Source: a virus. Taken from it: a stretch of 43,368 nucleotides of DNA. The stretch spans positions 1 through 43,368 of IMG/VR virus record IMGVR_UViG_3300035670_000442; one strand, given 5' to 3'. Both the position numbers and the translations under genes were made by a program. Below the pieces are notes generated by a model. That model was given only the letters and a program-made list of their open reading frames with translations, made no database searches and was not told the origin of the DNA. How positions within the stretch are numbered: position 1 is the first letter of the stretch; each line of letters opens with the position of its first letter. Below are positions 10,321 to 26,567 of the stretch, in pieces.

Positions 10321-10340
10321 AGTGAATCCTCTTTTAACCC

Positions 10341-10653: not shown

Positions 10654-10701
10654 TTTTGACTAAGCTGTCACCCCAGAGTATCAAGGCCAGCCCCAGGACT
10701 A

Positions 10702-11145: not shown

Positions 11146-11157
11146 ATTTTGCTCCTA

Positions 11158-11380
11158 GGCGTTTCATAGGCGTTTCACGGTTGAAACGTTGATATACAAG
11201 GCTTTGGGCACCCTGGGCGTTTCACAGATCCCTGAAACCCTTACGCATCAACGTTTCAAGGGCGTTTCAGGGTGAAACGTTGGTATATAAGGGTTTCAGC
11301 GGTTTAGGCGTTTCACAAGGCGTTTCATGAAACGTTTCACCCGTTTCAGCCCTTATATACCAACGTTTCAAGGGCGTTCC
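11158..11380. repeat. iteron-like cluster of GTTTCA/TGAAAC motifs
   Basis: About fifteen copies of GTTTCA, often as GGCGTTTCA, in both orientations. A 21-bp arm at 11273-11293 is exactly inverted at 11350-11370, each arm joining TGAAACGTT to an AT-rich GGTATATAAGG; a degenerate third arm lies at 11182-11202. It is non-coding, lies between the promoter at 11387-11416 and the HTH gene, and could be a replication origin, a centromere-like site or an operator array. Confidence 0.9.
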
Positions 11381-11386
11381 AGGATC

Positions 11387-11416
11387 AGTATAGCCTGGGT
11401 ATACCTGGGGCGTCAA
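11387..11416 (-). promoter_or_regulatory. promoter reading through the iteron-like cluster
   Basis: Leftward TTGACG (11416-11411), spacer with CCCAGGTATACCCAGG, -10 TATACT (11392-11387). The transcript would have a leader of about 235 nt containing all the repeats before the HTH gene. Confidence 0.7.
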
Positions 11417-12828
11417 CCTGGGCTCCTAGGGATACCCGCTGGCCTACCCTGGGCGTCCCAGAGAGCCTGGATGATCCCATAGATCTGCTTTCCTAAGGGA
11501 TACTGGCGACCAGTGTACCCCATGGTGGTCTTGATGGTAGCCGACGGGTTCACCCCTGTACTTAGATCAAAATATACAGCCTGGTAGTGCTGGGCTACCC
11601 CTTGATTTAGTTCCGGAACCTCCTGGAACTCGCCTGGAACTTCCTTGGAACTCGCCTGGAACTTCTGAAAAGTTCCCACGGAGTTCCAAGGGGTTCCAGG
11701 TTGGTTCCCGGGTGGTTCCGGGGCTGTATCCCTTACGGGGTGGTCGGTTCCGCCTTTTGGGGTACTTTTGGCCTCCAGGGGCCTTTTTTGGGGGCTTTTT
11801 GGGGCCTTGGGAACTTGGGGGATCTGTGCGGGTAGATCCTCTACCATACACTGACGTTTACCAGGTTCGATCTGATACCCGTGCTTGTCAGCCCAGGCCT
11901 TCCCTAGGCTACCCAGGCGGATAAAGGTGCAGTTCTCCCTAAGGCTTCCCTCACCCTCGATCCCTAGGGCCTTGACCTCAGCACCCTGAACCAGCATGAT
12001 CAGCCGGATACCAACCTTGCGGGCCTCGCGTAGGATTACCTTGATACAAGCTGACACCCCAGGGAGTTTCCCGTAGGCGTTGAACTCATCCAGGATCACG
12101 TTGACCACGGGGAACCGGTCTGTTCCTAGGTCTAGGTCACCCTGCGACCTCCTGGAGTACCGGTAGTCCATCTCAGCCACTAGGGAAGCCAGAAGCTGGC
12201 AGACAGTACAGTCCTGACCGTTCAGGATCTCCCCAAAGGGCACTGGAGGTTCTCCAGTCTCCACTAGTTCTCTCTTGACTTCCCGGGTCTCATAGGGTTC
12301 AGCGGAAACCCCAAAGTTACGCCCAGTATTGATCACTAGATCGGCCCCAGGGTAATCCCCGGGTTCATAGTGGGGTGCTGATACCAGGGTAGTCCCTCCG
12401 AGTAGCCCGGTCATCCACTCAGCCAGGGTAGACTTACCGGTACCCGTTGGCCCCAGGAGCATCATATGGGCATACTTGTCTCTATGGGTCTCAAGGTCAG
12501 ACCAGTCAAACCAGGGAACCTCTGGGGTATCCTGGGCGGCCTCCGGTAGGGCCTTGGTAGGCCCTGGGTTCATCAAGGACTGTAAGTGTAGATTCTGGTA
12601 GGCGTTATCCTCTATGTCTCGGGTATCCTGGAGCCTCATGGCGGCTTCCCGGGATATGCTGGACAGTACCAAGGACGATCCAGCCAGCCCTAGGGACACT
12701 GTAGCAGCCACCCGTTTTACCCAGGGGTCTAAGGACAGCGTAAAGGCCAGGGACAGCATAGATACACCGGTGACCACCCCAGAGGCTACCAGGGTGGCGT
12801 AACGGATCTTTAGTAGCTGGTAACTCAT
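11413..12828 (-). CDS. membrane-anchored FtsK/VirD4-like DNA translocase ATPase
   Basis: 471 aa from ATG 12828 (GAGGTGG upstream; ATGA overlap with the previous gene; an in-frame GTG nine nt upstream is less likely). Two transmembrane helices in residues 8-58, Walker A GPTGTGKST (126-134), Walker B VNVILDEFNAYG (about 240-252), then a Pro-rich linker and a small C-terminal domain (about 420-471, GVNPSATIKTTMGYTGRQ) that looks like a winged-helix DNA reader. This order resembles FtsK and conjugative coupling proteins that pump DNA at a membrane. It is odd in a lytic-looking phage and may serve segregation of a plasmid-like state, DNA entry or exclusion. Confidence 0.8.
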   Translation of the reverse strand: MSYQLLKIRYATLVASGVVTGVSMLSLAFTLSLDPWVKRVAATVSLGLAGSSLVLSSISREAAMRLQDTRDIEDNAYQNLHLQSLMNPGPTKALPEAAQDTPEVPWFDWSDLETHRDKYAHMMLLGPTGTGKSTLAEWMTGLLGGTTLVSAPHYEPGDYPGADLVINTGRNFGVSAEPYETREVKRELVETGEPPVPFGEILNGQDCTVCQLLASLVAEMDYRYSRRSQGDLDLGTDRFPVVNVILDEFNAYGKLPGVSACIKVILREARKVGIRLIMLVQGAEVKALGIEGEGSLRENCTFIRLGSLGKAWADKHGYQIEPGKRQCMVEDLPAQIPQVPKAPKSPQKRPLEAKSTPKGGTDHPVRDTAPEPPGNQPGTPWNSVGTFQKFQASSKEVPGEFQEVPELNQGVAQHYQAVYFDLSTGVNPSATIKTTMGYTGRQYPLGKQIYGIIQALWDAQGRPAGIPRSPG

Positions 12829-13202
12829 AGTGGCCACCTCATAGCACCCAGGGACAGCCCCAGGAGCGTCATAGAGACCCGGTAGGCAATCACAGGTAAC
12901 ACCGTGGGCTTTCTGAGGAACACCAGGGTACAGATAGCCCCAGCGGTCAATAGGGTTAGCCCGACAGCCACCCGGACAGCCAGAAACGGAAAAAACAACA
13001 GGTCGCCCAGCAACACTGAAGCGGCGATCTGGGTGACCACGTCATTCAGGACACCCAAGGGGTCACTGGGGAGATACAGGTGAGACTCCCAGGCCCTTAG
13101 GAAGTTCTCCGGGCGATCGGTGACCCGGTTGGTATCCAGGGTGATAGGGACATCTTGACCCCATAGACCCCTGACGATCACGGTAGGTTTAGAGTCAGCC
13201 AT
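12825..13202 (-). CDS. membrane protein, 125 aa
   Basis: A hydrophilic N-terminus (about 45 residues), then about three hydrophobic segments (VTQIAASVLLGDLLFFPFLA, VAVGLTLLTAGAICTLVFL, VIAYRVSMTLLGLSLG). Function unknown. Its stop overlaps the FtsK-like start (ATGA), suggesting the two act together at the membrane. Confidence 0.75.
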   Translation of the reverse strand: MADSKPTVIVRGLWGQDVPITLDTNRVTDRPENFLRAWESHLYLPSDPLGVLNDVVTQIAASVLLGDLLFFPFLAVRVAVGLTLLTAGAICTLVFLRKPTVLPVIAYRVSMTLLGLSLGAMRWPL

Positions 13203-13536
13203 GGTAACCCCTGCGTTTAAGGTAATCGGTCAGCCACCGGCGCATACGGATGACCTGGGATGCCAGGGACAAAGTGATCTCCCTGAGATCATCCGGGTGG
13301 GCTTGGCGGATGTTGCGTCCCAGGGCCTCCAGGTGTAACTGGTCTTCCAGAGGCATAGGTTTTTCTTCAGGTAGGCCTAGCGGTTCCATAGCTGGCCTCC
13401 CAGAACCGTGCGGACGACCGGAGGGCTGTTTAGGCCCAGCCGGAACGCCCAGGAATGACTCAGGGTTAACAGGGGCACCCAGATCAGTAAAGGCCATAGT
13501 TTCCAAAATGGGATCATTGCTTCCTCCGGCGTTCAT
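13195..13536 (-). CDS. hypothetical protein, about 113 aa
   Basis: Gly/Pro-rich N-terminal half, then a helical C-terminus (PLEDQLHLEALGRNI, EITLSLASQVIRMRRWL). The start is uncertain: ATG 13536 lies 23 nt inside the upstream gene with a weak ribosome site, and ATG 13497 is an alternative. The end overlaps the membrane protein gene by 8 nt. Function unknown; it belongs to the FtsK-like operon. Confidence 0.6.
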   Translation of the reverse strand: MNAGGSNDPILETMAFTDLGAPVNPESFLGVPAGPKQPSGRPHGSGRPAMEPLGLPEEKPMPLEDQLHLEALGRNIRQAHPDDLREITLSLASQVIRMRRWLTDYLKRRGYHG

Positions 13537-13654
13537 AGTCGTCAATAGCTTCCTCAACCGCGTCCTGGGTAGGACAGGTGAAGACCGTTTGACCCTTGCG
13601 GGCAGTCCAGGAACCCGAGCGGTTCTCGGTCAAAATGTAACCTCGGTATTTCAT
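13514..13654 (-). CDS. small hypothetical protein, 46 aa
   Basis: Starts MKYRGYILTENRSGSWTARK and ends in a charged helix DDYERRRKQ. Start overlaps the stop of the 75-aa gene (ATGA). Resembles other short phage proteins with a strand pair and one helix; no function recognised. Confidence 0.6.
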   Translation of the reverse strand: MKYRGYILTENRSGSWTARKGQTVFTCPTQDAVEEAIDDYERRRKQ

Positions 13655-13878
13655 AAGAGCACCACCAGTGAGAGTAGACCAGCCAAGGCAACGCCAGCGA
13701 TAAACCCGGACAGCCAGGAAAACTCCTGGTCTTTTAGGCGATCATCAGCCAGGCAGTAATGGATCTTCCCAAGCTTCCCATGGATGTCCCTAAGGATCGG
13801 GTAGGTGACCTGATCAGGCTCCAGTCGTCCCAAGGACTCTGAGATGTTGGCCAGGGTGTCTAGGTAGTAGCGATACAT
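13651..13878 (-). CDS. small tail-anchored membrane protein, 75 aa
   Basis: Soluble helical N-terminus and one C-terminal transmembrane helix (FIAGVALAGLLSLVVLL), with the bulk therefore likely in the cytoplasm. TAGGAGG precedes ATG 13878. First gene of the leftward FtsK-like operon, started by the promoter at 13898-13926. Confidence 0.75.
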   Translation of the reverse strand: MYRYYLDTLANISESLGRLEPDQVTYPILRDIHGKLGKIHYCLADDRLKDQEFSWLSGFIAGVALAGLLSLVVLL

Positions 13879-13897
13879 TAAACCTCCTAAAAACCCA

Positions 13898-13938
13898 AGG
13901 GTAACCCGGTTGACCCGCTAGGTCAACTTAGGTACAAT
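13898..13938. promoter_or_regulatory. interleaved divergent promoters sharing one palindrome
   Basis: Rightward: TTGACC 13910-13915, 17 bp, TACAAT 13933-13938. Leftward: TTGACC 13926-13921, 17 bp, TACCCT 13903-13898. The two -35 boxes face each other inside the palindrome GGTTGACC-CGCTA-GGTCAACT, so RNA polymerase can occupy only one direction at a time. Confidence 0.75.
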
Positions 13939-13948
13939 AGTTTTTTAT

Positions 13949-13963
13949 CTATGGTCACCATGA
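13949..13963. promoter_or_regulatory. operator-like palindrome over the regulator start codon
   Basis: The ATGGTCACCAT core (13951-13961) is identical to the upstream palindromes of other promoters. Here it lies just after the predicted start site of the rightward promoter, and its first ATG is the start codon of the HTH gene. A protein bound here would block its own transcription. Confidence 0.6.
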
Positions 13964-14466
13964 TTGACATTGACAGCCTGTATTGCCGATGGCTCCAAGG
14001 GCGATCCCTGAGAACCATAGCGGCCTCGGTAGGGATCTCCCATAACACTCTACACACCCGGTTTCAAAAGACCTATGGGCAACAGGCCACCAGCCTAACT
14101 GGGGCATCCTTGGCCCGGTCTATGGTGGCTGATAACCCGGACTGCCCAGAGACCCTGGAGTATGCCTTAGACCTCATCAAGTCCGGTCAGTTCTCCAAGG
14201 TCAAACACAGAAGCCGCCATAGCCTGTTACAGCTCGGGGTGTATCAGAACATCCGGGACTCCAGGTTAATGGATACGATCGCAGTAGCCCCAGAGGAAGA
14301 CCCTGAGATCTCCCTAGGATTCCCTATGTTCCAATGGGTATTGGATGCCCTGGTGGGCATTCTGGGTGATAGCCTACTGTGGGCTATAGGCTACCGTAAC
14401 ACACAGGTAGACCTGGGATGCCCACCTGTGTCCCTGGGTGACCTAGGGATTATTGGGTTTTCCTAG
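13951..14466 (+). CDS. HTH transcription regulator, probable operator-binding protein
   Basis: 171 aa. Residues about 14-45 form a helix-turn-helix (WLQGRSLRTIAASVGISHNT) like recombinase/response-regulator type HTHs; the rest is unrecognised. The predicted transcription start (about 13945) is only a few bases before ATG 13951, so the mRNA is nearly leaderless; ATG 13960 is an alternative. It is one of few rightward genes in the left arm. The ATGGTNACCAT palindrome over its start and upstream of other promoters suggests it is an autorepressed activator of those promoters; this is inference. The 3' end overlaps a convergent gene by 24 nt. Confidence 0.75.
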   Translation: MVTMIDIDSLYCRWLQGRSLRTIAASVGISHNTLHTRFQKTYGQQATSLTGASLARSMVADNPDCPETLEYALDLIKSGQFSKVKHRSRHSLLQLGVYQNIRDSRLMDTIAVAPEEDPEISLGFPMFQWVLDALVGILGDSLLWAIGYRNTQVDLGCPPVSLGDLGIIGFS

Positions 14467-14751
14467 GTGAGCCTCCAGGGTCTTCCGGGATAGATCTAGG
14501 TCTACCAGTGGAAGTTGTTGGCCATAGAGACCAGGGTAAGGGGAGCCGGGATAGAAGGCCCTGGAACCGTCCCCGAACTCATCAACAGTCATGGGTTCTG
14601 TCCATTCCAGGGTATAAAACCCCTGAGGGTTGGCATAGTCGGTCATATAGGAAAAGTGATAGACTCCCTCGGGGTAATCAGATCCCCTGGCCTTTAGAGC
14701 GACCGACGGATCTCCGTCTCGGTCTAAGTATTGATGCTGTTCGATGTTCAT
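14443..14751 (-). CDS. hypothetical protein, 102 aa
   Basis: Acidic, aromatic-rich protein (YHFSYMTDYANPQGFYTLEW) of unknown function. AAGG precedes ATG 14751. Overlaps the end of the HTH regulator gene tail to tail. Second gene of the leftward unit begun at 14985-15013. Confidence 0.65.
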   Translation of the reverse strand: MNIEQHQYLDRDGDPSVALKARGSDYPEGVYHFSYMTDYANPQGFYTLEWTEPMTVDEFGDGSRAFYPGSPYPGLYGQQLPLVDLDLSRKTLEAHLGKPNNP

Positions 14752-14760
14752 AGGTGTACC

Positions 14761-14955
14761 TTAACGAGTTACTTTGACAAATAGACCCCGGGACTTGTCA
14801 TAGCGGTAAGTGTGTTCCTTACCACCACGGCCACCCACCCGGGCACAAAAGCCATCCCCTGTATAGTGGATGATGTTGACAGTACCCGAGGGTAGCTGGA
14901 GGCCCTCTAGGTTCATCATCTCAGCCCCTGTTATTGTCCGAGGTAGTTTGTTCAT
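14761..14955 (-). CDS. small hypothetical protein, 64 aa
   Basis: Starts MNKLPRTITGAEMMNLEG; basic Gly-rich C-terminal half (GRGGKEHTYRYDKSRG) that could be a small beta domain. GGAGGG lies upstream of ATG 14955, about 30 nt from the promoter. Likely early host-interaction protein by position only. Confidence 0.7.
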   Translation of the reverse strand: MNKLPRTITGAEMMNLEGLQLPSGTVNIIHYTGDGFCARVGGRGGKEHTYRYDKSRGLFVKVTR

Positions 14956-14984
14956 TGGGTGCCCTCCAGGGCTTAACTGTCTCC

Positions 14985-15047
14985 AATATAAACAGGTAAA
15001 CCCACTGGGTCAACCGGGTTGTTCTCTATGGTCACCATAGGTATACC
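14985..15047. promoter_or_regulatory. divergent promoters sharing the CTATGGTCACCATAG palindrome
   Basis: Leftward: TTGACC 15013-15008, 17 bp with GGGTTTACC, TATATT 14990-14985. Rightward: TTGTTC 15019-15024, 17 bp, TATACC 15042-15047. The palindrome at 15026-15040 is centred 20 bp upstream of the leftward -35 but fills the rightward spacer, so one bound protein could activate leftward and repress rightward transcription. Confidence 0.7.
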
Positions 15048-15074
15048 TCTATGGTTGACCGGTTAGGGTAAACC

Positions 15075-15344
15075 ATGGCCAGAACGACTATCGCAGGCAT
15101 AGCAGAGCAAGCGGGTATCCCCTGGGATACTCTGCTGGATTTCAACCCAGCCCAGGTACCCTTTGATTTTCCCCCAGAGTTTGCCAAGGGCTTGGAGATC
15201 GCAGAGTCCCTGGGTGTCCAGGTGCCCCAGCCTGGCCAGGTTATCCAGGACATCCTGGGGCCGATCAGGAACCAAATAGAGACCCTGGGGAACACAGAGA
15301 TCCCCCAGGGTGAACTGTTGTCCCGTATCGAATGGCTGTTTTAG
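15075..15344 (+). CDS. hypothetical protein, 89 aa
   Basis: Starts MARTTIAGIAEQAGIPWDTL; the first 30 residues (ITAGIAEQ-like helix, then LLDFNP) faintly resemble a LysM repeat or a small HTH, but neither is convincing. The ribosome site is TAGGGTAAACC, the form used before many late genes. It runs against the surrounding leftward genes and overlaps the HNH gene end by 4 nt. Confidence 0.65.
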   Translation: MARTTIAGIAEQAGIPWDTLLDFNPAQVPFDFPPEFAKGLEIAESLGVQVPQPGQVIQDILGPIRNQIETLGNTEIPQGELLSRIEWLF

Positions 15345-16096
15345 CCCCAGTAGTATGTCTCCTGGTTGACTGGGGCATACTGGAGGTTCTCAGCCATTAA
15401 CCGGAGAAACTCCTGGGTTTCCTCAGGGGTAGCCTGGCCTTTACCACAGTTGACCAGGTAGCAACAGAGGACAGTATTATCGGGGGTATACCCCCGGTGA
15501 CTATCCAAGCGCTCAAGGCAGACTTCGGTTAACAGGGGCCTAACTTCCTCGTCTGGGTCTGGCTCTGTCATGATGATCCCGGTGTAGTAACATCTGGGCT
15601 GGCGTTGGAATAAGTCCATCAGCCATTCCCAGGTGATCGATACGTCGTCCATTAGACGCCCACGGTTTCTAAGGGTTTTTGTATTACCCCGGGCATTCAA
15701 GATTTTCACTTTAGCCCAATGTTCCCGGTTGTACCGCCGGTTTCTCTTAGCTTGGCAGGAAATACAGTATCCTTGCCGTCCATCTGCCTTTGAGGATTGC
15801 TTATGGAAAAAGTCTATGTTGTGGTTTTTCTGACAGATGGGGCAGTACCTTTCCACCCTGGGGTACGTTAGCCTGATACGCATTAGCTTGAGTCTTCTAG
15901 CTTCCTTGCGCCTAGCCCTTTCTCTGCGTTGCTTGGTACTACCCCGGGCGTCCCGTATTTTGGTTTTAGCCCAGTTTTTCCGGTCGTACCTTCTTTTACA
16001 GGCCTTACAGTATGAGTTTAGCCCATCCTTAGCCCGGGCATTCCGGGAAAACTCAGAGAGATCCAAGGTCTCTTTACACTTTGTACATTTCTTCAT
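15341..16096 (-). CDS. HNH-type endonuclease with duplicated zinc-finger domain
   Basis: 251 aa from ATG 16096. Two tandem copies of a C-x2-C...C-x2-C domain (C4/C7/C30/C33 and C85/C88/C111/C114), each followed by a matching basic stretch (WAKTKIRDARG, WAKVKILNARG). The C-terminus has a degenerate treble-clef nuclease fold: CYYTG, ERLDSHRGYTPDNTVL, then VNCGKG. Such proteins are free-standing homing or DNA-cutting enzymes in phages. An upstream GTG (16132) lies before the predicted transcription start and is rejected. Monocistronic with its own promoter. Confidence 0.75.
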   Translation of the reverse strand: MKKCTKCKETLDLSEFSRNARAKDGLNSYCKACKRRYDRKNWAKTKIRDARGSTKQRRERARRKEARRLKLMRIRLTYPRVERYCPICQKNHNIDFFHKQSSKADGRQGYCISCQAKRNRRYNREHWAKVKILNARGNTKTLRNRGRLMDDVSITWEWLMDLFQRQPRCYYTGIIMTEPDPDEEVRPLLTEVCLERLDSHRGYTPDNTVLCCYLVNCGKGQATPEETQEFLRLMAENLQYAPVNQETYYWG

Positions 16097-16122
16097 CAGT
16101 TCTGTTGTCCTTATGTTCACCC

Positions 16123-16152
16123 GGTATAGCACAGGTTAACCGGGCCGGTCAA
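16123..16152 (-). promoter_or_regulatory. promoter of the HNH gene
   Basis: Leftward TTGACC (16152-16147), spacer with CCCGGTTAACCTG, -10 TATACC (16128-16123). Confidence 0.65.
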
Positions 16153-16562
16153 CCTGTAACATAGTCCAGGCCTTCCCTGGCCTCTAGAGACCAGCCGTAT
16201 TCCCCCAGCCAGAGATTATCAGCTTCAGACCAGTGCTCTATGATCTCCTCTAATGCCTTGCTAGCCTGTCTACGGGTTCCATAGCGTTGACTCATAGGGT
16301 AGCCTAGGGTGTCGACCACTATCCAACCGCCAGCCCGTTTCACGGGTTCACTCTGGGGTGCCATGGGCCTACGGGGGATAACCGGTAAAGGTGTCCAGTC
16401 CAGGGCCGCCCTTAGGGCTTCTTCTAGGCTGGAATGGCTGCATTCGAACTTCTGGTCTCCCTTAGCCTTCACAGTTACAAGCCAGTCTTTACCCATCAGC
16501 CTGTACACATCCCAGGATGGAAACTTGAGATCTAAAGCAGCGATCAGATTATCTACGGTCAT
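16149..16562 (-). CDS. hypothetical protein, 137 aa
   Basis: Begins MTVDNLIAALDLKFPSWDVY. Two similar parts (WDVYRLMGKDWLVTVKAKG and GGWIVVDTLGYPMSQRYG), each strand-rich and followed by a helix, suggest an internal duplication of a small alpha-beta fold. TAGGAG precedes ATG 16562. Function unknown. Confidence 0.65.
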   Translation of the reverse strand: MTVDNLIAALDLKFPSWDVYRLMGKDWLVTVKAKGDQKFECSHSSLEEALRAALDWTPLPVIPRRPMAPQSEPVKRAGGWIVVDTLGYPMSQRYGTRRQASKALEEIIEHWSEADNLWLGEYGWSLEAREGLDYVTG

Positions 16563-16585
16563 GGGGATCTCCTATTTATTGACCC

Positions 16586-16615
16586 AGCCTAGCATAGGCT
16601 AACCCGCCAGGTCAA
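16586..16615 (-). promoter_or_regulatory. promoter of the 137-aa gene
   Basis: Leftward TTGACC (16615-16610), spacer with GGGTTAGCC, -10 TAGGCT (16591-16586), a weaker match. It overlaps the end of the small HTH gene. Confidence 0.5.
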
Positions 16616-16851
16616 CCTGGGTAGTCAGTCACCCAAGGGCTACCCTGGGACTCCCGGCGTCCATGCCAGTAGCCTAGCTGGTATTGGGTCTGGGAACCCG
16701 AGTAATCCTTAAGCCAATGGATACGCCGGACAACAGTTTCTTTGCACAGGTGTACCCTTGAGGCTACCTGGGCATACGTGAGGCCCTCGGACATCAGACG
16801 GAGGATCTCTAGGTCTGTGGAATCTGGTTCGGTCTTGACTGGCTTAGACAT
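16612..16851 (-). CDS. small HTH protein, 79 aa
   Basis: From ATG 16851. Residues about 12-45 (LEILRLMSEGLTYAQVASRV, then KETVVRRIHWL) are a LuxR/sigma-region-4-like helix-turn-helix with nothing else attached. It could be a phage transcription factor and is a second candidate for the shared promoter palindromes. The ribosome site is poor; a GTG at 16884 would add eleven residues. Head-to-head with the rightward 82-aa gene. Confidence 0.65.
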   Translation of the reverse strand: MSKPVKTEPDSTDLEILRLMSEGLTYAQVASRVHLCKETVVRRIHWLKDYSGSQTQYQLGYWHGRRESQGSPWVTDYPG

Positions 16852-16876
16852 CTTAGGAAAAACCCCTGGTAAAAAT

Positions 16877-17125
16877 ATGAACACTCTGGCCCTAGCGATC
16901 CCTCAGTTCACCCGGCGTATGCTGGCCATCAATGGATACTTTTTCGCCCAGGGTTTACCCCAGGCAACCTCGCCTGTGGAAACCGAGCTATGCCGTGATC
17001 GCTGGCTACCTGGACTCTGGGTAAACCCTGAATACAGGTTGACCACTCATTTCAGGTGGTTCTCGGTCTATGGTCGGATGACCCATCTGCCTACCGGCGT
17101 GTCTTCTGTATTAGCCTACGTCTAG
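16877..17125 (+). CDS. hypothetical protein, 82 aa, against the local strand
   Basis: Begins MNTLALAIPQFTRRMLAING. It fills the gap between two leftward genes with phage-like codon use and no competing leftward frame until 17091. No family recognised; weak ribosome site. The last 35 nt overlap the convergent gene. Confidence 0.45.
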   Translation: MNTLALAIPQFTRRMLAINGYFFAQGLPQATSPVETELCRDRWLPGLWVNPEYRLTTHFRWFSVYGRMTHLPTGVSSVLAYV

Positions 17126-17708
17126 ATGCCCTATGGCCCCAGTGATACTCCAGGATGTCCTTAAGTTCACTCAGGACTCCTGAGTACCATTCCCGGTACT
17201 CCTCAGGGGTGATAACAGCCTTGTGACCGTGTTGCTCATGGAACTGCCGGGTGTCATCTATGGGGCTACTTAGGGATCCATCCTTCATGGCAACGGTGGT
17301 CTTAGCACGACCCCAGAGGTTCAGGTAGTACAGGTACCGCCGGTGGTGTGCCAAGTACCTCCGGAACAATGGGAGATACGGGGCCAGCTTGTAAGCCGGG
17401 CGGGTCTGTGACCACCATAGGATGATCTGGATAGTGTCCTTGCAGGACTCTAGGCTTTTCCGGTAAGAGCTTAGGGCCAGTCCCCGCTCGAACTCAGTAT
17501 CAAAGTCTGTGTCCCGAGCCCGAACCAACCGGTGCCCCATACCATCTAATGATCTTAGGTTAGACTCCAGATTACCCCTAGCCTTGGCCGCATCTATGCG
17601 CTCAAACTTCCTGGGCTGAGACCTAGGGGCTTTACCACTAAAGGTTGTTGTGTTGCAGTGGTCAACCATGGCGGCCAGGGTTTGCTTGTTATTCATTGCT
17701 ATACCCAT
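17091..17708 (-). CDS. hypothetical basic protein, 205 aa
   Basis: First leftward gene from the central divergent promoter, a position usual for the earliest takeover genes. Strongly basic (APRSQPRKFERIDAAKARG, HHRRYLYYLNLWGRAK, RASRRRLIQKTRR), so nucleic-acid or ribosome binding is plausible; no family recognised. ATG 17708 would give a very short leader; ATG 17696 is four codons on. Confidence 0.7.
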   Translation of the reverse strand: MGIAMNNKQTLAAMVDHCNTTTFSGKAPRSQPRKFERIDAAKARGNLESNLRSLDGMGHRLVRARDTDFDTEFERGLALSSYRKSLESCKDTIQIILWWSQTRPAYKLAPYLPLFRRYLAHHRRYLYYLNLWGRAKTTVAMKDGSLSSPIDDTRQFHEQHGHKAVITPEEYREWYSGVLSELKDILEYHWGHRASRRRLIQKTRR

Positions 17709-17722
17709 ACATATAGAACCCC

Positions 17723-17822
17723 AGGATAACCCGGGTACACCTGGGAGGTCAACCCATAGAAAACTCTATGGTTACCATAGAAAACTATGGGGTTGACTTC
17801 CCAGGTGTACCCGGGTTATCTT
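17723..17822. promoter_or_regulatory. central divergent promoter pair
   Basis: Leftward TTGACC (17752-17747), -10 TATCCT (17728-17723); rightward TTGACT (17793-17798), -10 TATCTT (17817-17822). Both spacers contain CCCAGGTGTACCCGGG. CTATGGTTACCATAG (17766-17780) lies between them, centred 21 and 20 bp from the two -35 edges. It drives early leftward genes and, rightward, the structured RNA and late operon. Confidence 0.8.
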
Positions 17823-17956
17823 TAGGTCATGGAAACGGAAAGGGTAATAAGCCCCAAGGGTTCAAGCCCTGGGCAGCCCATGTAGGCTGAAACATTTATA
17901 GTAAGTCTACTAACCGGCCAAGCACCGACGGGTGCCCCGCTTGACGGGAAGAACAT

Positions 17957-18058
17957 TGATCCTATATACGCAGATTGTCAGAGTAAGGGTATTCAACGCC
18001 CCTTGCCTTATCTGAGGGCCTCCGGGCCTATACAGGAAGAAACCTGTAGTATGGATCA
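17957..18058 (+). repeat. structured RNA unit 1
   Basis: Closing stem TGATCC (17957-17962) / GGATCA (18053-18058); a 36-nt core at 17975-18010 identical to unit 2; hairpin ACAGG-AAGAAA-CCTGT (18032-18047). Exactly 100 nt before unit 2. Confidence 0.8.
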
Positions 18059-18062
18059 CCTT

Positions 18063-18159
18063 AGTCCTTTTGGCTTGTCAGAGTAAGGGTATTCAACGCC
18101 CCTTGCCTTAGCTAATGGCCTCCGAGCCTATGCTGGAAGAAACCAGCAATCCGAGGACT
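18063..18159 (+). repeat. structured RNA unit 2
   Basis: Closing stem AGTCCT (18063-18068) / AGGACT (18154-18159), different in sequence but equivalent in position to unit 1; the same 36-nt core (18075-18110); hairpin GCTGG-AAGAAA-CCAGC (18132-18147) with the same loop and paired substitutions. Confidence 0.8.
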
Positions 18160-18179
18160 TTCGCTGACTACTATCCAAG

Positions 18180-18215
18180 GTCTCATCCGGGCTATCCCTG
18201 TAACCCGGATGAGAC
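18180..18215 (+). repeat. 12-bp stem hairpin, loop CTATCCCTGTAA
   Basis: GTCTCATCCGGG pairs perfectly with CCCGGATGAGAC around a 12-nt loop. No T-run follows, so it is not an intrinsic terminator. The TATCCCT in the loop recurs in the loop at 29936-29973 and near 34721. Confidence 0.85.
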
Positions 18216-18351
18216 TCAAGAGAACTAGGCAGCACGCCGATAGGCCACCCAGGTAGATCAGGGACTACCAGAGTGGCCTAGAGGTATATCCGGGCGGTTT
18301 CAGGGTGCCGTACCACCCTGGGACAACCTGGTACACCATAGGGTAAAACCT

Positions 18352-20436
18352 ATGGACATCCAAGTAAAAATCCAGGACTACCCGGTAACCTGGGCCAGCG
18401 GTAGGGAGATCATAGATGTAGCAATAACCCTAGGACAGCAAGAAAAATCTAGCAACTGTCAGGTAACCTTAGCAGACCCGGACGGGTCTATCGGGGCTGC
18501 CTTGATCGCACACTCGGAGAAAGCTGGGGGTATAGTCGGGCTGCCTGCTAGCCAGGCTACCCAGGGTACCTCCGGGGTATCTGGTGGTACCTGGGGTGAT
18601 GCCTCGGGGGCTGAGGTTGCGATCGTGGCTGAGTGTATCGCCCAGGGTGTCACTGATGACGCCCAGATAGCCTATATCCTGGCTACTGCTAAGCATGAAT
18701 CGGGTAACTTTGTTTACACAGAAGAGATCTGGGGGCCTACCCCAGCACAGTCAGGTTATGAGGGTCGGGCAGACCTGGGGAATAACCAACCGGGCGACGG
18801 GTACAGGTACCGTGGCCGTGGTCTTGTGCAGATCACGGGTAGACGGAACTACCAGGATTGGTCAAAGCGCCTCGGGGTTGACTTGGTATCCAACCCAGAC
18901 TTGGCCAGCCAACAGGGCTATGCCTTGACCATCCTGGTTGTCGGGATGCGTGATGGTACCTTTACCACCCGGAGATTATCCCAGTACGTCCAAGGCTCCA
19001 AGCGAGATTTTACTGGGGCTCGTCAGGTAGTCAATGGTACTGACCAGGCGTCCTTGATCGCCGGGTATGCCCAGGAGTACCTAGCGCGTGTCCCGGGACT
19101 CAGGTCTGTCACTGGTTCACCGGTCACCCAGACACCACCAGAGCCCACGGACACAGGGACTATCAAGGGATCACTGATCGAGATCACCATTGATACCTAT
19201 GTGTTTCGGTTTTATCACACAGGTACTGATACCAGTAACACAGGACAGACGGTACTGACGGGTCAAGGCGTCCGTTGGCTACTCAGTAGACGCCGGAAGT
19301 CCCGGGCGATCGCCTCAGTCACCCTGAGGGGCCTAGCCCAGAAAATCGCAGAGATCCATGGCCTTACCTTGGACTACCAGGCCTCTATTAATCCTGAGTA
19401 CACCTATGTAACCCAGGAGAACATTAGCGACTACCAGCTACTCCTAAGGGAAGCTGACCGGGCTGGTCTGTGGCTATCTGAGGAAAACGGAAAGCTAACC
19501 ATCAAGGACACCCGGAATGCCCGGGATACCTCGCTGGTTCTTAGACCCGGGCTAAACCTGATCTCCTGGAAAGTATCAGACAAGGCTATCAGTACCCTTG
19601 AGGACGCCCCTGATACTAGCTTGCGTCAAAAGGAGCCCAAGGTGACCATAGATGCCCAGAGCGGCCAGTTGTCCCAGGTAGCCCCTGAGATCTCCGATGA
19701 CGCTGAGGCCACCACAGGGGAGACCCCAGAGACCCAGGGAACGCTAGCACCGGGCCAAGATGTCATAGTCACCCAGAGCCGATCCCGGTACAAAAGAGTC
19801 AAAGGATTACCCTCTATGTTCACCCTTGGACTCACCCTTGGACTACAACCCTTGGACGCTGTAACCACCCAAGGGTTACCTGGGGTACTCAGCAGAGTAT
19901 GGTTAGTAGACTCAGTGACACACCAGGTGTCCGCTGGTACCACGGCTCTACAGGTCTATAGCCCGGTAGAGGTATTAGACCTTACCCCAGAGACCCCTCA
20001 GACCTCTACGGCTGCCCCGGTAAACCCAGGCGTCCCTGGTAGCTACATCTACCCGGTTACTGGGTTCGTCGTGACCTCACCCCGTGGGCCTCGGAATGGC
20101 CGGATGCACCATGGAACCGATGTGGCCACTCCGACTGGAACCCCTATCGTGGCGTCCCAGGATGGCCAGGTAACCATAGCGGCCACCCAGAGCGGCTATG
20201 GTAAAGTGATCTACCTGAAACACCCAGATGGCTACGAGACCCGATATGCCCACCTAAGCGCCTTCAGTGTCTCGGTAGGCCAGACGGTAACCAAGGGTCA
20301 GCAGATAGGCCTATCCGGTAACACGGGGGTAGGTACTGGCCCACATCTGCACTGGGAGATCCGGAACCCGTCAGGATCATCCATCAACCCCGAGGACATA
20401 GGGCTACCCGTAAAGGTAGGGTCTAACATGGGGTAG
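18352..20436 (+). CDS. tail hub (gpD-like) with GH19 and M23 murein hydrolases
   Basis: 694 aa. Residues 1-60 and about 255-400 resemble late control protein D, the tail hub. Between them (about 85-245) is a chitinase-class GH19 lysozyme domain (AKHESGNF with E116, then [15 protein letters not shown]). The C-terminus (about 565-690) is an M23 peptidase with HHGTD and HLHW zinc motifs and YAHL. Such hubs cut the cell wall during DNA injection; having both a glycosidase and a peptidase is a rich outfit. AGGGTAAAACCT precedes ATG 18352, and SD and start are within an imperfect inverted repeat (CCATAGG/CCTATGG). It lies before the portal, far from the other tail genes. Confidence 0.9.
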
Positions 20437-20479
20437 GGGAACCCTGTGGAAACCGCTGGGACAACATAGGGTAAACCCT

Positions 20480-21934
20480 ATGGACTTCCCCGATACTATG
20501 ACCCTGGAGTCCCTGGAGACCCGGGACGAGCGTCACCAGGACAGACTGAGAACCTGGGAAGAGATCAGCGACTTCCGGTCAGGCTGGCCCCGGCTGAAAA
20601 ACAAGCTTGACTACTACTTGCCCCAGAGACCCGGGGAAGACCCAGAGATTTACCGACACAGGATCCGTAAGCCCTGCTATACCCCTGTGATGAATACGGC
20701 GATCCGTGAGTTCACAGGTAAGCTGATGTCATCGGCTATCCATGAGTCTGGGGCTGATGGCGACTTCTGGGACGCCTGGTTTGAAAAGACAGACGGTAAG
20801 TCCCAGGATAAAAATGAGCTACTGACGGACATCTTTACCTGTCTGCTGTACTACGGGGAAGTCTACCTAGGCGTAGAAAACCCCCGAACTTTCCAGGGTA
20901 ACATGATTTTACCCTATGTTTTACTGTATGAGCCCTGGTATTGCACCTACCAGGCGGATAACTGGTATCTGACCAAGCAAGTCAAGATCACCCGGACTCC
21001 ATTTGGGCGTCCAGAGTCCCGGGTGATCTGGACGTACTGGATGCCAGGGGTGACTGCCCAATATGAGGCCCAGGCAGAACTTGGGATCAATGGGGAAGTT
21101 CACCGGGTCTTCAACGGTAATGAATGGGTAACGGCGATCCCTAAGACACCTGTCCGGTTGGCCCGGATCTTTGAACACGGGGCACCCAGGGCGGCTATGG
21201 TGCACCTAGAGTTACCCGAGGAGCTCTGGACAGCCCGGCAAGCCTACCCGAAACAATGGCAACACATGATCGTAGAGAATGCCTGGGTGGACTCTGGGTC
21301 TACCGCGGGGGTAGTACAGCGTATCTACCGCCCTAGTCCACCAGCACCCATGGACGATCCCAGGGTCTCCTATAGTACCCCTGATTACTCCCAGATGGTC
21401 TCCGGGAATCACCATATTCTGATCGGGGATGACTTTAAGTTTTCAGAATCCCCTGGTGGGGCGATCGCTAACCTCCAGGGTCAGCTAGACAAAATCGAGC
21501 TACAGATCAAGCACCTGGCCAGTATGGGCTGGCAGTCGGTAGACGGTGACATCCAGAATGCCTCTGGGGCATCCAAGGCCGTTGATATGGCACTCCTGGA
21601 AGACACCATGAAAACCTATGGTAAAAAGGTACTACAGATTTACCAGGGTGTCCTGGGTTTAGTCTCAGAGTTAGCAGGCGGTCAGGGTGAGATCTCGGTT
21701 ACTGGCCTAGACACCTACGGGGTAGATAGCCTCCAGGAGATCCTAGAGGAGTCCGAGACCGTCTTTAAGTACCTAGAGTATCTCCCTGAGACTGCCGTAA
21801 GACTCTGGGTGTCCAGGTTGTCCGGGCTACTGGCTGGCTCTGTGTCCTTTGAGGATCGACAGAAGATCCAGGACGAACTGAAGGCCCTGGAGCTTAGACA
21901 ACATAGGGTAAACCCAGGAGAACAGAATGGATGA
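20480..21934 (+). CDS. portal protein
   Basis: 484 aa, usual portal size. N-terminal RHRIRKPCYTPVMNTAIREF, the central DIFTCLLYYGEVYLGVENP and the later helical QLDKIELQIKHLASMGW, plus ASGASKAVDMALLEDTMKTY and the long C-terminal helices, match phage portals of the DUF4055-like group. It forms the dodecameric ring for packaging and tail joining. The start lies in the inverted repeat ATAGGGT-AA-ACCCTAT that holds both SD and ATG. Overlaps the next gene by 8 nt. Confidence 0.85.
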   Translation: MDFPDTMTLESLETRDERHQDRLRTWEEISDFRSGWPRLKNKLDYYLPQRPGEDPEIYRHRIRKPCYTPVMNTAIREFTGKLMSSAIHESGADGDFWDAWFEKTDGKSQDKNELLTDIFTCLLYYGEVYLGVENPRTFQGNMILPYVLLYEPWYCTYQADNWYLTKQVKITRTPFGRPESRVIWTYWMPGVTAQYEAQAELGINGEVHRVFNGNEWVTAIPKTPVRLARIFEHGAPRAAMVHLELPEELWTARQAYPKQWQHMIVENAWVDSGSTAGVVQRIYRPSPPAPMDDPRVSYSTPDYSQMVSGNHHILIGDDFKFSESPGGAIANLQGQLDKIELQIKHLASMGWQSVDGDIQNASGASKAVDMALLEDTMKTYGKKVLQIYQGVLGLVSELAGGQGEISVTGLDTYGVDSLQEILEESETVFKYLEYLPETAVRLWVSRLSGLLAGSVSFEDRQKIQDELKALELRQHRVNPGEQNG

Positions 21935-22484
21935 AGCGGCGGTAAAAGCCCTGATTAAAACAGCCCTAGAGGATTTCACAGGAGACCTGGAGAGTCTCTT
22001 TGAACCCGTGACCAAGGCGATCACTAAAGACACCCGGGATTACCTTAAGGCTGTCCTAGATCCCCTGGAAGATCGCCTAGGTAAGATCGAGGCCCCTCAG
22101 GATTCCAAGGATGAGCCTGGGAAGTCTCCGGATGATACCAGGCTAGCCAAGCTTGAACAGTCCTTGGAGGCAGAACGAAAAACCAGAGAAAGCCTGGAAC
22201 TCAAGGCAGCCTTAGGGGACATCTTGGGTGGCTATGACCTCAAGTTCGCAGACCAAGCGCGTCAAGGTGTCCTGGGAGCCGCCGGGGAACTCAAGAAGTC
22301 CGGAGACTCCTGGGTGACCAAGGATGGCCGAAGCCTCCAGGAAGTTACCGAGGAGTTTATGGGGACGGACTTCGGTAAGCACCTGATGAACCCTAAAGGT
22401 AAACCGGGCAATGGTACGGAGCCGCCCCAGGGTAAGCAAGGGGAGTCAGTAGATCCCGTGACTGCCTTAGCCGGGTTTTTCTAA
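21927..22484 (+). CDS. scaffolding-like protein
   Basis: 185 aa, highly charged and helical, with coiled-coil character at about 70-95 (LAKLEQSLEAERKTRESLEL) and a disordered C-terminus rich in Lys, Gly and Pro. Its position between portal and major capsid protein is the usual scaffold slot. No protease gene is seen nearby. GGAGAA precedes ATG 21927. Confidence 0.75.
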   Translation: MDEAAVKALIKTALEDFTGDLESLFEPVTKAITKDTRDYLKAVLDPLEDRLGKIEAPQDSKDEPGKSPDDTRLAKLEQSLEAERKTRESLELKAALGDILGGYDLKFADQARQGVLGAAGELKKSGDSWVTKDGRSLQEVTEEFMGTDFGKHLMNPKGKPGNGTEPPQGKQGESVDPVTALAGFF

Positions 22485-22525
22485 GGGTACACCGGGACAC
22501 ATTAGGAAAAACATAAGGAAAAACA

Positions 22526-23830
22526 ATGCCAGCTAACACCAGCTTAACGCCTGTAGAGGCACTCAATAAGATCCTAGATAACCGGGTGGCGTCCACCCGG
22601 ATCACGGGTACCCGTACCCTTTCCAACATGGCCCTGGCCGGTCGGGTTGTGGAAGTCCGGAAGACCAATATAGACTGGCCGGTCGTCCTGGGTGGCGAGG
22701 TAGCCTCAGTAGGTTCAGTAGACGCTGACACCACTGGAACGGCTAGCGCGGATACCAAGGCTTGTAACCTGAAGATCGGGGGTTATCGGATCTTTCACCT
22801 GTTCGACTTGTCCCGGGTGGCCATCCAGGAAGCCCGCTCGGTTGGCCCTGGTGAACTGAGTAACCTTTTCGGTACTACCCTAGACATCGGTATCAATGCG
22901 ATCGCTCGTAAGCTAAACGGGTATATCTATACTGGCCTGGGTCAAACGGCCCAGGCTGAAGTAGTGGGCCTAGGTGCTGTCCTGGACAACGGGGCAACTT
23001 ATGCCACCATTGACCCGGCAACCTATGACTCCTGGAAGGCTATTGTTCTCCGGGGATCTTCTCGGGTGCTGACTGTGGGTACTGTGGCTAACTCAGCAGC
23101 CTATACGGTGACCTTTGGCGGGGTAGCCCTGACCTATACCTCGGATGCCAATGCTACCGAAGACGAGATCCTCCAGGGCCTCTATGATGTGATCTTGGCC
23201 TCTGAGGCTGCCCAGTACCTCAAGGTCTCCCCAGTGTTAGACCTGACTGGTAACACGATCACCCTGTTACTCAATAACCCTGAGGTTACTATTTCGGTAA
23301 CGGGTAACCTGACCCTTGGATCGGTGGTGACCACCAAGCGTGACATCACCCGGGCACTGATGCTAGACCTAGATCAGCGGGTGGCCATGTATGAACAGAT
23401 GTATGATACGGTGCTGACCCATCCGGCGATCGCCCGCAAGTACACTGAGGTCTTTGATACCCTGGGTATCCAGTCTGGGGCTTCCTTGATCGACCGCCGG
23501 GAACTTCGGGGTCTGCCCGCTGCTGACTTGGGTCACGGTGGCCGTTACTTCAATGGTTACCCGATCATCGAAGATCCCCAATGTCTCCGGGACTCCATGA
23601 TCACCCTGGATATGAACCAGGTAATGCTCAAGTGTTTCCTGTTAGACAACAGCCCAGCAAACCCTGATGCTATCTCTGGGGTGGCCATCAACCGGGCCTA
23701 TGGTATCCCGATCCACATCGCAGAGTTACCTAGCTCTAACAGTGCCAAGCGTACCTTTGAGATGTACGTGATGCCCCAGTTACAGGTAATGAACCGCCAA
23801 GCCGTCCAGGCTATCCGTGATCTGGCATAA
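22526..23830 (+). CDS. major capsid protein, HK97-like, with inserted domain
   Basis: 434 aa. N-terminal arm, then a helix with FGTTLDIGINAIARKL, and a C-terminal part with DTVLTHPAIARKYTEVF, DRRELRGLPAADLG and GIPIHIAEL that follow the HK97 capsid fold. Residues about 180-285 are a beta-rich insert (YTVTFGGVALTYTSDANATE...LLLNNPEVTISVTG) resembling repeats found in decorations and fibres; it probably projects from the capsomer. AAGGA precedes ATG 22526. A strong terminator follows, fitting heavy expression. Confidence 0.88.
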   Translation: MPANTSLTPVEALNKILDNRVASTRITGTRTLSNMALAGRVVEVRKTNIDWPVVLGGEVASVGSVDADTTGTASADTKACNLKIGGYRIFHLFDLSRVAIQEARSVGPGELSNLFGTTLDIGINAIARKLNGYIYTGLGQTAQAEVVGLGAVLDNGATYATIDPATYDSWKAIVLRGSSRVLTVGTVANSAAYTVTFGGVALTYTSDANATEDEILQGLYDVILASEAAQYLKVSPVLDLTGNTITLLLNNPEVTISVTGNLTLGSVVTTKRDITRALMLDLDQRVAMYEQMYDTVLTHPAIARKYTEVFDTLGIQSGASLIDRRELRGLPAADLGHGGRYFNGYPIIEDPQCLRDSMITLDMNQVMLKCFLLDNSPANPDAISGVAINRAYGIPIHIAELPSSNSAKRTFEMYVMPQLQVMNRQAVQAIRDLA

Positions 23831-23882
23831 GGTCTCCTGATACGCCCTGGGTTAACAGGACACAGGACACAGGAGACAGAGA

Positions 23883-23909
23883 GCCCCGGGTTTCCCGGGG
23901 TTTTTCTTT
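23883..23909 (+). terminator. intrinsic terminator after the capsid gene
   Basis: CCCCGGG-TTT-CCCGGGG (23884-23900) followed by TTTTTC. Separates the portal-capsid unit from the connector and tail unit. Confidence 0.92.
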
Positions 23910-23967
23910 ATGCTTGACCTAGGCCATACCAGAGGGATTCTAACTTTTCTAAGGCATTCTTTTCTAC

Positions 23968-24012
23968 TTGACGCGCTTTGATCGCTCAGGTATTTCTCTA
24001 TGGTTAACATAG
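23968..24012 (+). promoter_or_regulatory. candidate promoter for connector/tail genes
   Basis: TTGACG (23968-23973), 17 bp, TATTTC (23991-23996). A degenerate palindrome CTATGGTTAACATAG (23998-24012) covers the expected start site, a position suited to repression. Confidence 0.5.
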
Positions 24013-24041
24013 AGTATCCAGGGACGCCTTAGGGTAAACCC

Positions 24042-24383
24042 ATGACTATCTCCTTTGAACTGGGTTACCCAGATGACACCCTAGAGCCCATCCTGGAGGG
24101 CCAGAGGCTCCAAAGAACCACGGCCATCACATCTGAGCTAAGGGATGTCACCGATCAGCTCAAGGCGGCCATCCAGGATTCTATGGCCCAGGACGTTGGG
24201 GGTCTTAAGGTTGACTTTGACGCCCATATCGCCCAGGTGAAAACCGAGGGTACCCGGTTGTTACTGGAGCTGGCCCAGGTCTCCGGGCTACCCCTTAGGT
24301 ATGACAGGTTTTCAGGACGAACCTACCCAGAGGGTTCCCAGGCCTACCTGGGTAACCCGCTGTCAATCATCAGCTACGCCTAA
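24042..24383 (+). CDS. head-tail connector-like protein, 113 aa
   Basis: Helical protein (TTAITSELRDVTDQLKAAIQ, LLLELAQVSGL) placed right after the capsid gene, where head-completion proteins usually lie. No motif proves this. The ribosome site is TTAGGGTAAACCC, identical to that before the tape measure gene. Confidence 0.6.
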   Translation: MTISFELGYPDDTLEPILEGQRLQRTTAITSELRDVTDQLKAAIQDSMAQDVGGLKVDFDAHIAQVKTEGTRLLLELAQVSGLPLRYDRFSGRTYPEGSQAYLGNPLSIISYA

Positions 24384-24400
24384 CAACATAGGGTAAAAAG

Positions 24401-24946
24401 ATGACCGTTAACACCTATGGGGCTCTGTTTAGCCCCACCAAAATCACCCCAGCTATCCGTAGGGCTGCCGGTAAGGCCAGGGCATACGGAGAATACCGTA
24501 TCAAGGCCAGGACACCCATCCGGACGGGGCTGCTACATAGATCCTGGCAGGTGGATTTAGAGGGCTATGGGGTCAGGGTACGCAACAATACGCCCTATGC
24601 CATTTATAACGAGATGGGTACCCGGTACATGAGGGCTAGACCCATGGTCGCCCCAACCATACCAGAGATGCAAGCGGTATTCAAGACCGAGATCGGTCGG
24701 GAAGTCGGTAGATCCCTGGGTAACAAGATCCTAGGTGAACTCCGGTCTATCACGGCCCCAGGAGGCTACCGAGGCCTGACCGAGGGACGCCGATATATCA
24801 AGGGCAACCGAGGGTTCAGAACTAACCCGGATGTCATGCTGGAGTATACTGAACTGGCCAAGTTAAACCGGAGGTTCGGTAAAGCATTCCCAGCATTCCC
24901 GGGTCAGCTCCAGAGTCCTAAGGCCAACAGGGTAGGTGCCCGATGA
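24401..24946 (+). CDS. HK97 gp10-like head-tail/neck protein
   Basis: 181 aa, basic. [15 protein letters not shown] and [17 protein letters not shown] match the HK97 gp10 / tail-completion family (TGxLrxSw ... YaxxvE.Gt ... .ArPfl). These proteins sit at the neck. Overlaps the fibre gene by ATGA. Confidence 0.8.
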
Positions 24947-26565
24947 TTAACCGCGTTTCTAGACTACCAGGGCCTCAGGGGCCTCAGGGGCCTCAGGGTG
25001 ACCCAGGGCCTCAAGGGCCTCAGGGTCTCCAGGGTCTCCAGGGTGACCCAGGGCCTCAGGGTCTCCAGGGTGACCCAGGGCCTCAGGGTCTCCAGGGTCT
25101 CCAGGGTCTCCAGGGTGACCCAGGGCCTCAGGGTCTCCAGGGTCTCCAGGGTCTCCAGGGTGACCCAGGGCCTCAAGGGCCTCAAGGGCCTCAGGGTCTC
25201 CAGGGTCTCCAGGGTCTCCAGGGTGACCCAGGGCCTCAGGGTCTCCAGGGTCTCCAGGGTCTCCAGGGTGACCCAGGGCCTCAAGGGCCTCAAGGGCCTC
25301 AGGGTCTCCAGGGTCTCCAGGGTCTCCAGGGTGACCCAGGGCCTCAGGGTCTCCAGGGTGACCCGGGGCCTCAAGGGCCTCAAGGGCCTCAGGGTCTCCA
25401 GGGTCTCCAGGGTGACCCGGGTACTACTGAGTTCTCAGGTCTTACTGACTTGGTTGCTACTGCTCTAACCAGCGGCAACAGCGGTAAGTCCATGGCGCTT
25501 ACGTGGGATAACACAGGGGAGACGCTGACGCTGACTCCTAGTCCGGTGTTTGACACTGTGACTATTGGGCAAAGTGTTGATGCTTCTGGAGTAAATACTG
25601 GTAAAGCTTTCCTCCCTAACTTTTACGCTAACACCAACAATGCACTTAGATTAGCCGGAGAACGGCTTCAGCACGGTAGCCGTATTCATAGCCTTACTGC
25701 GTCTACAGCGACTAACGCAGACAACGCTACAGGCTGGGATTACGATAACTTTGCTACCATCACGAACGGTCAGACTATAGAGTTTGATTTTACTGGGATT
25801 AGCTCAAATGGTTACACGTATTTAGGGGCGATAGACCTGATACTGGTGACAATGAGGTCTACGGGTGCTGTGTTGCCCTCGTCTATCTTTGTAGAGTACC
25901 GCAATAGCTCGAATGTTTGGGTGGCTATCGGTACAATGACCACGCCAGTTTACTCCAGCGGATCGGGTGCTCTTTATGTGCTGCAAAACCCCATCGGGCA
26001 GCAAACTTTTATCAGAGGGATGCGGTTTACCTTTACAGGTACAGGCACAATGTTGTGCGTTGCTACGGAATGGCACCCATCGAGAGCTTCAGCATCCGAT
26101 CCTGCAGAGTACATCCGCACATCCTCTCCCTCTCGCTTAAACGTTTACGCTCCATCCATTTGGTTGCGTGGTCAATCTTCATTCCCTCGAATCGAGATTG
26201 ATAGGGACGGGGGCTTTATCAGGGTAAATGCCGGGGGAGGGACACCAGGAATATCAACATTAGGTGGTGGGTTTTTGGAGGCAAACGCAACGACTCCGTC
26301 AACCTCAACAACTACTGGCGCTATACGTACGGCAGGCGGCATTGGATCCCAAGGTGCTGTTTACGCTGGTGGTGAAGTACAAGGTACTGAGTTTCGCATC
26401 GGTGGTACCAAGGTACTAGGAGCTAGGCAAACCGGATTTACCTTAGGCAGCGGTACTGAGGCCAAGGGTGCCATAGATGACACTACTATCACCCTTCAAG
26501 AGCTGGCCCAGCAGGTTATAGCCCTCAAGGCGGCCTTGGCAGCACACGGCATTATAGGGAGTTAA
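24943..26565 (+). CDS. collagen-like fibre protein
   Basis: 540 aa. Residues 10-160 are about fifty G-X-Y triplets (mostly GPQ, GLQ, GDP), which should form a trimeric collagen stalk. Residues about 165-500 are a beta-rich adhesin-like part, and the last 30 residues are helical ([17 protein letters not shown]), possibly a trimerisation end. The base composition of about 25440-26400 differs from the rest (more AT, fewer CCTGG words), so the head of the fibre looks imported. Likely a receptor-binding or neck fibre. Lengths of the repeat tract can vary in frame by slippage. Confidence 0.85.
24970..25422 (+). repeat. collagen-coding 9-bp repeat array
   Basis: Arrays of GGTCTCCAG and GGCCTCAAG-type units joined by GGTGACCCAGGG. 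Units are multiples of 9 bp and larger blocks recur exactly, so gain or loss of units keeps frame. All three forward frames and the reverse strand stay open across parts of it, a side effect of the repeat. Confidence 0.95.
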
Positions 26566-26567
26566 CC

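Follow-up and report, generated by a model that had tools for sequence, protein, structure and literature searches.

Tandem RNA units with compensatory stem changes in the putative late-operon leader of a predicted cyanobacterial phage

Phage HK022 encodes two similar structured RNAs of ~70 nt, putL and putR, near its early promoters, with putR lying ~270 nt from its start (PMC9378689). They offer the closest working analogy to the locus described here, at which a structured RNA likewise appears shortly 3' of a phage promoter and ahead of a long operon, with two related copies in the genome. Membership fails on architecture: a put RNA is ~70 nt long, consists of two stem-loops and occurs once per early transcript, whereas here two adjacent units of ~100 nt precede late genes, each predicted to fold as a four-way junction.

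Tandem glnA RNAs and the structured RNAs of cyanophages make a cyanobacterial setting plausible for such an element (PMC2864571). The glnA and Downstream-peptide (glutamine) RNAs share that setting, and some glnA and glycine RNAs are tandem; our locus differs from these and from other tandem riboswitches in having no Rfam match at E values up to 5 and virion genes downstream. The manA, wcaG and PhotoRC-II RNAs are structured RNAs of cyanobacterial phages, some of them in potential 5' leaders, but the present units lie in another gene context and have no Rfam match. GOLLD and ROOL are phage-associated structured RNAs too, yet they are single and much larger, as against two 100-nt repeats with no Rfam match here. 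Repeated small structured units are also found in the STAXI and pan motifs, and a dimeric protein has been proposed as the partner of pan. STAXI folds as a pseudoknot, whereas the pan motif is one stem bearing bulged A residues (PMC2864571), and the present units have no Rfam match that would link them to either. An earlier reading of the sequence alone had invoked cooperative riboswitches and multimer-forming RNAs, the latter idea being what recalls GOLLD and ROOL, and we keep both as analogies only.

The window analysed is the whole of IMG/VR record IMGVR_UViG_3300035670_000442, 43,368 nt in length. Its first and last 251 bases are identical (1-251 and 43118-43368), a direct terminal repeat from which the record appears to be a complete phage genome of ~43.1 kb. 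The portal, terminase, sheath and major head proteins are ~24-42% identical to those of Leptolyngbya phage Lbo402-yong5 and of prophage-like loci in cyanobacterial genomes, four of which carry several of these genes and a fifth portal and terminase only; the A-family polymerase resembles cyanophage polymerases. From these virion protein and polymerase relatives we infer a contractile-tailed phage with a cyanobacterial host. When proteins were used to look for close relatives of the hub, the portal and the gene at 17091, one distant hub match was the sole result. Leftward genes (polymerase, primase, methylase, nucleases) occupy 10-17708 and a contiguous block of rightward virion genes occupies 18352-34481. 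The 643-nt gap between them (17709-18351) contains the RNA units, and its other features and the genes that follow are:

17723-17752, minus strand: mirror leftward promoter-like site, TTGACC-N18-TATCCT, half of a 38-nt-arm inverted repeat
17793-17822, plus strand: rightward promoter-like site, TTGACT-N18-TATCTT with a palindromic spacer (CCCAGGTGTACCCGGG), from motif matches; predicted start near 17829
17829-17956, plus strand: 5' part of the putative leader, modestly structured (z=-2.0)
18180-18215, plus strand: strong GC-rich hairpin that follows unit 2 and resembles a terminator but lacks a U-run, not called by the terminator scan
18216-18351, plus strand: rest of the putative leader, with two more long hairpins before the start codon (18160-18351, z=-6.8)
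18352-20436, plus strand: first late gene, a 694-aa baseplate-hub-like protein with glycoside-hydrolase-19-like and peptidase M23 domains
20480-34481, plus strand: downstream virion genes (portal, major head, collagen-like fibre, sheath, tail, baseplate)

The inverted repeat (17718-17755/17790-17827) consists of two outward-facing mirror copies of a promoter-like TTGAC-N-TCCCAGGTGTACCCGGGTTAT motif, the general form of which is TTGAC-N18-TATNNT with a palindromic spacer. The 27-mer motif pattern occurs with 0 mismatches at 17793 (plus) and 17752 (minus), where 0 are expected by chance, and recurs at 8601-8627 (minus) and 33171-33197 (plus) with two and three mismatches, respectively, zero again being expected. 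The motif TTGACNTCCCAGGTRTACCTGGGTTATNNT is present also at 5574 (minus), 11416 (minus) and 34772 (plus), with a weaker version at 34525 (plus). The recurrences at 5574, 8627 and 11416 on the minus strand and at 33171 and 34772 on the plus strand all lie within or border intergenic gaps. The palindrome in the spacer, whose best form is CCCAGGTATACCTGGG, points to an operator lying between the -35 and -10 elements.

Given that 17793-17822 is the sole plus-strand promoter-like site in the gap before the virion block, transcription is predicted to start near 17829 and to produce a leader of ~520 nt. The units would then sit ~130-330 nt into this structured late-operon leader and at least 190 nt from the start codon. 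By position the locus qualifies as a cis-acting leader, with a promoter-like site at 17793-17822 followed by the first gene at 18352, both on the plus strand. Compared with shuffled sequences, 17828-18351 folds with z=-5.9 on the plus strand and -3.7 on the minus strand, while 11 coding windows used as a control range from +0.7 to -2.7. The 18160-18351 segment folds with the same strength whichever strand is taken. The gap at 11146-11412 is also very palindromic (z=-8.8 on the plus strand and -7.2 on the minus strand) and contains a 43-nt-arm inverted repeat as well as ACGTTTCA motifs that recur; strong hairpins by themselves therefore do not set a region apart in this genome. The terminator scan found no plus-strand terminator-like site in the leader, and no further plus-strand promoter site was seen between the 18180-18215 hairpin and the late genes.

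The units themselves, on the plus strand at 17957-18058 and 18063-18159, are ~100 nt each. As the sequence-only reading had reported, they share an identical 36-nt core, TTGTCAGAGTAAGGGTATTCAACGCCCCTTGCCTTA, at 17975-18010 and 18075-18110, offset by exactly 100 nt, with a chance expectation of 0; the two-unit repeat spans 70 nt at 91% identity. For the outer stems the offset is 106 nt on the 5' strand and 101 nt on the 3' strand, since the linker of unit 2 is six bases shorter on the 5' side and one base longer on the 3' side. Two covarying stems in that reading are borne out: the closing stem, TGATCC/GGATCA (17957-62/18053-58) against AGTCCT/AGGACT (18063-68/18154-59), and a hairpin, ACAGG/CCTGT against GCTGG/CCAGC, with the same AAGAAA loop in both units. 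It had missed a third covarying stem, CAGAT/ATCTG (17971-75/18010-14) against TGGCT/AGCTA (18071-75/18110-14), as well as a small conserved hairpin, GGC-CUCCGR-GCC. On the plus strand both units are predicted to fold into a four-way junction, composed of a closing P1; a P2 with an internal loop and a longer P2b capped by the 10-nt loop UAUUCAACGC; a 3-bp P3 hairpin with loop CUCCGR; and a P4 hairpin with loop AAGAAA. All of the following are on the plus strand:

17957-18058: unit 1, with P1 17957-17962/18053-18058 plus an inner ATAT/GTAT
17971-17975/18010-18014 and 17980-17989/18000-18008: P2 and P2b of unit 1, 10-nt loop UAUUCAACGC
18017-18019/18026-18028 and 18032-18036/18043-18047: P3 (CUCCGG) and P4 (AAGAAA) of unit 1
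18063-18159: unit 2, architecture as unit 1, with P1 18063-18068/18154-18159
18071-18075/18110-18114 and 18080-18089/18100-18108: P2 and P2b of unit 2
18117-18119/18126-18128 and 18132-18136/18143-18147: P3 (CUCCGA) and P4 (AAGAAA) of unit 2
17975-18010: core copy 1, from the repeat and identity search
18075-18110: core copy 2, from the same search

We took unit 1's own minimum-energy structure and projected it on unit 2, a comparison of two paralogous copies and not of independent homologues, in which all 23 substitutions between the units fell in paired columns. Eight pairs are double-compensatory (four in P1, two in P2 and two in P4) and a single pair, in P2, carries a one-sided change from A-U to G-U. 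Three aligned pairs are broken in unit 2: two at the end of P3, which is longer in unit 1, and one in the inner extension of P1. Three further pairs of that extension fall in the gap, as the linker of unit 2 is shorter. Within P1, P2 and P4 no double change breaks a pair, with the exception of a single pair in the inner P1 extension. When the 23 substitutions were placed at random, at least 8 double-compensatory pairs arose in 0 of 200,000 trials (maximum 6), and every substitution fell in a paired column in 4.5e-5 of trials. With the positions fixed and the bases randomised, 0.8% of trials reach 8 double-compensatory pairs, so that much of the signal comes from changes falling in paired positions. 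P2b and the 3-bp P3 are invariant between the copies and thus give neutral evidence on the fold. A check for loop-loop kissing yielded only a weak 4-pair match, and a check of the P2b register minor alternatives only.

Folding z-scores on the plus strand are -3.5 for unit 1 and -2.5 for unit 2, against -1.5 and -1.8 on the minus strand, and both the A-U to G-U change in P2 and a U-G pair in P2b form pairs on the plus strand only. No open reading frame longer than 49 aa overlaps the gap and none spans both units. The copies differ almost wholly in ways that preserve the fold, and the conclusion that the shape of the RNA is under selection, as the sequence-only reading had argued, is well supported by compensation in three stems, the plus-strand preference, the plus-only U-G pairs and the lack of an open reading frame across both units. 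Since strong hairpins are common across this genome, it is covariation and strand preference, rather than stability, that mark out the tandem units.

A coding remnant, named beforehand as the finding that would overturn a structural reading, deserves consideration on account of one database match. The core resembles, in antisense, the lysozyme gene of Escherichia phage Halfdan (40/48 identities, 83%, E=0.01-0.06 in the collection search), a likeness that covers Escherichia phages Halfdan and Shy. We judge the match to be chance, because its E-value is borderline, the similarity is confined to the core and the differences between units track stems rather than codons. Stops also interrupt the units, and we reject the idea that they are coding sequence antisense to the Halfdan/Shy lysozyme gene as wholly improbable.

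We looked for relatives of the units at several levels. The whole window gave 0 matches to Rfam 15 at gathering cut-offs, including the riboswitch, GOLLD, ROOL, manA, wcaG and STAXI models, and relaxing the search of 17700-18360 to E values up to 5 produced only matches far below the cut-offs, with no riboswitch among them. Exact and gapped DNA patterns (the core; P2 loop with internal loop; core with P3; P3 with P4) had no matches in viral contigs, or only matches judged to be chance by spacing, context and model score, and the exact 24-mer was absent from the genome contigs. A covariance model, R1, built from the two units recovered its own genome as a positive control and found nothing convincing in related phages, in 47 viral records whose polymerase is related, or in 386, 36 and 388 (partly overlapping) cyanobacterial genomes; resting on two near-identical cores, R1 is strict in sequence and would miss diverged relatives. 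One partial R1 match of 15 bits (E=0.05) was judged chance from its sequence. Searches of phages and plasmids by blastn added just one match to that of the Halfdan type, weaker and due to chance, the tandem repeats in Leptolyngbya phage Lbo402-yong5 and the prophage loci included no similar pair, and we found no description of the tandem element in the literature. On these comparisons the units appear to form a tandem RNA element that so far lacks a known relative and belongs to no catalogued family. This absence of homologues is not proof of uniqueness, because near records may be missing from the collections and metagenome contigs lay outside the scan.

What might such an element do? We rate at about even the proposal that the tandem four-way-junction domains act in cis, by whatever mechanism, in the late-operon leader. 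Transcription from the phage promoter motif at 17793-17822 would yield an RNA that opens with a short structured 5' segment, followed in turn by both units, three strong hairpins and the hub/lysin start codon. The conserved unpaired parts of the units (the P2 internal loop and the UAUUCAACGC, CUCCGR and AAGAAA loops) are carried on stems that vary freely, and may be binding surfaces offered in duplicate. The binder could be a protein of phage or host, a small molecule, or RNA polymerase itself. Binding would change how readily polymerase reads through the hairpins that follow, or how accessible the first ribosome site is, and would thereby set expression of the late operon. The units are probably a cis-acting binding platform that controls late transcription or translation. 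The compensatory changes in P1, P2 and P4, the better plus-strand folding with its strand-specific G-U and U-G pairs, the lack of coding sequence, the sole plus-strand promoter-like site, the folded leader and the contiguous virion block downstream all speak for action in cis. Against it stand covariation drawn from two paralogous copies with no homologue found, a transcript whose start and extent are predicted, a hairpin at 18180-18215 that lacks a U-run and so makes no termination or antitermination step evident in the sequence, the equal folding of 18160-18351 on both strands beside an even more palindromic gap at 11146-11412, and the distance from units to start codon. A bolder version, in which the units are a phage regulatory RNA of a new class, tandem four-way junctions transcribed first in the late operon that load onto RNA polymerase, or bind a phage protein in pairs, and switch on virion genes in cyanobacteria, we regard as doubtful.

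Within action in cis, processive antitermination of the HK022 put or nut kind is a doubtful option, in which the nascent units would load onto RNA polymerase, alone or with a phage protein, and let it pass terminators in the 16-kb late operon. In its favour, the units follow a promoter and precede both strong hairpins and a long operon, and the purine-only P4 loop on its 5-bp stem recalls boxB. The precedent of putL and putR as paired structured RNAs (PMC9378689) helps too, but tandem four-way junctions are not the two-stem RNA present singly on each early transcript, no N-like protein was identified and the leader has no called plus-strand terminator-like site. A cooperative tandem ligand-binding riboswitch, as in glycine or glnA RNAs, is less likely still: two homologous, covarying ~100-nt domains with a strictly kept core do lie in tandem downstream of a promoter-like site, yet no Rfam riboswitch model is matched, searches of bacterial genomes gave no homologues, and the genes that follow encode the virion hub/lysin and then other virion proteins rather than metabolic enzymes or transporters. 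These two are sub-readings of the cis model that the present data cannot separate. Alternatively, a stand-alone RNA running from 17793 to the 18180-18215 hairpin could act in trans as a decoy, inhibitor or scaffold, with the units as binding sites for protein or RNA of host or phage; we consider this unlikely. A strong hairpin does end the structured part 20 nt past unit 2, constant loops on changing stems fit binding by a protein and the start codon is far away, but that hairpin lacks a U-run and was not called by the terminator scan, and ending transcription there would leave the late operon without a promoter of its own. Least favoured among the non-coding functions is an element acting as DNA (a replication origin, or a packaging or recombination site), with the inverted repeats extruded as hairpins, which we think improbable. 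The location would suit it, since the two gene blocks diverge here close to a weak cumulative GC skew minimum, in a genome with many palindromes; the G-U pairs and better plus-strand folding favour RNA, the adjoining large inverted repeat is explained by two mirrored promoters, and the skew signal is small and coincides with the change in gene direction.

The locus presents a well-supported case of an RNA structure under selection, in a phage lineage that has been little sampled and at the natural control point of virion gene expression. If the units do control the late operon, they would constitute an RNA-based late switch in phages of cyanobacteria, and the presence of two copies per transcript makes structure-function tests straightforward.

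Several other features of the genome were recorded. Between 34525 and 34770, a promoter-like site is followed by ~200 nt without a called gene and then by another promoter-like site at 34772; the segment has no Rfam match and is possibly a second non-coding RNA. A long 9-nt-periodic repeat at 24897-25450 lies within the gene for the collagen-like (Gly-X-Y) fibre protein. A translation-start motif, CNTTAGGGTAAACC or CATAGGGTAAA(C)CC, is common to virion genes just 5' of the ATG, with sites upstream of 18352, 20480, 21927, 24042, 24401, 28108, 30904 and 32565 on the plus strand and of 34999 on the minus strand. At 18352 and 20480 this motif is palindromic with the start codon, as in CATAGGGTAAACCCTATG.
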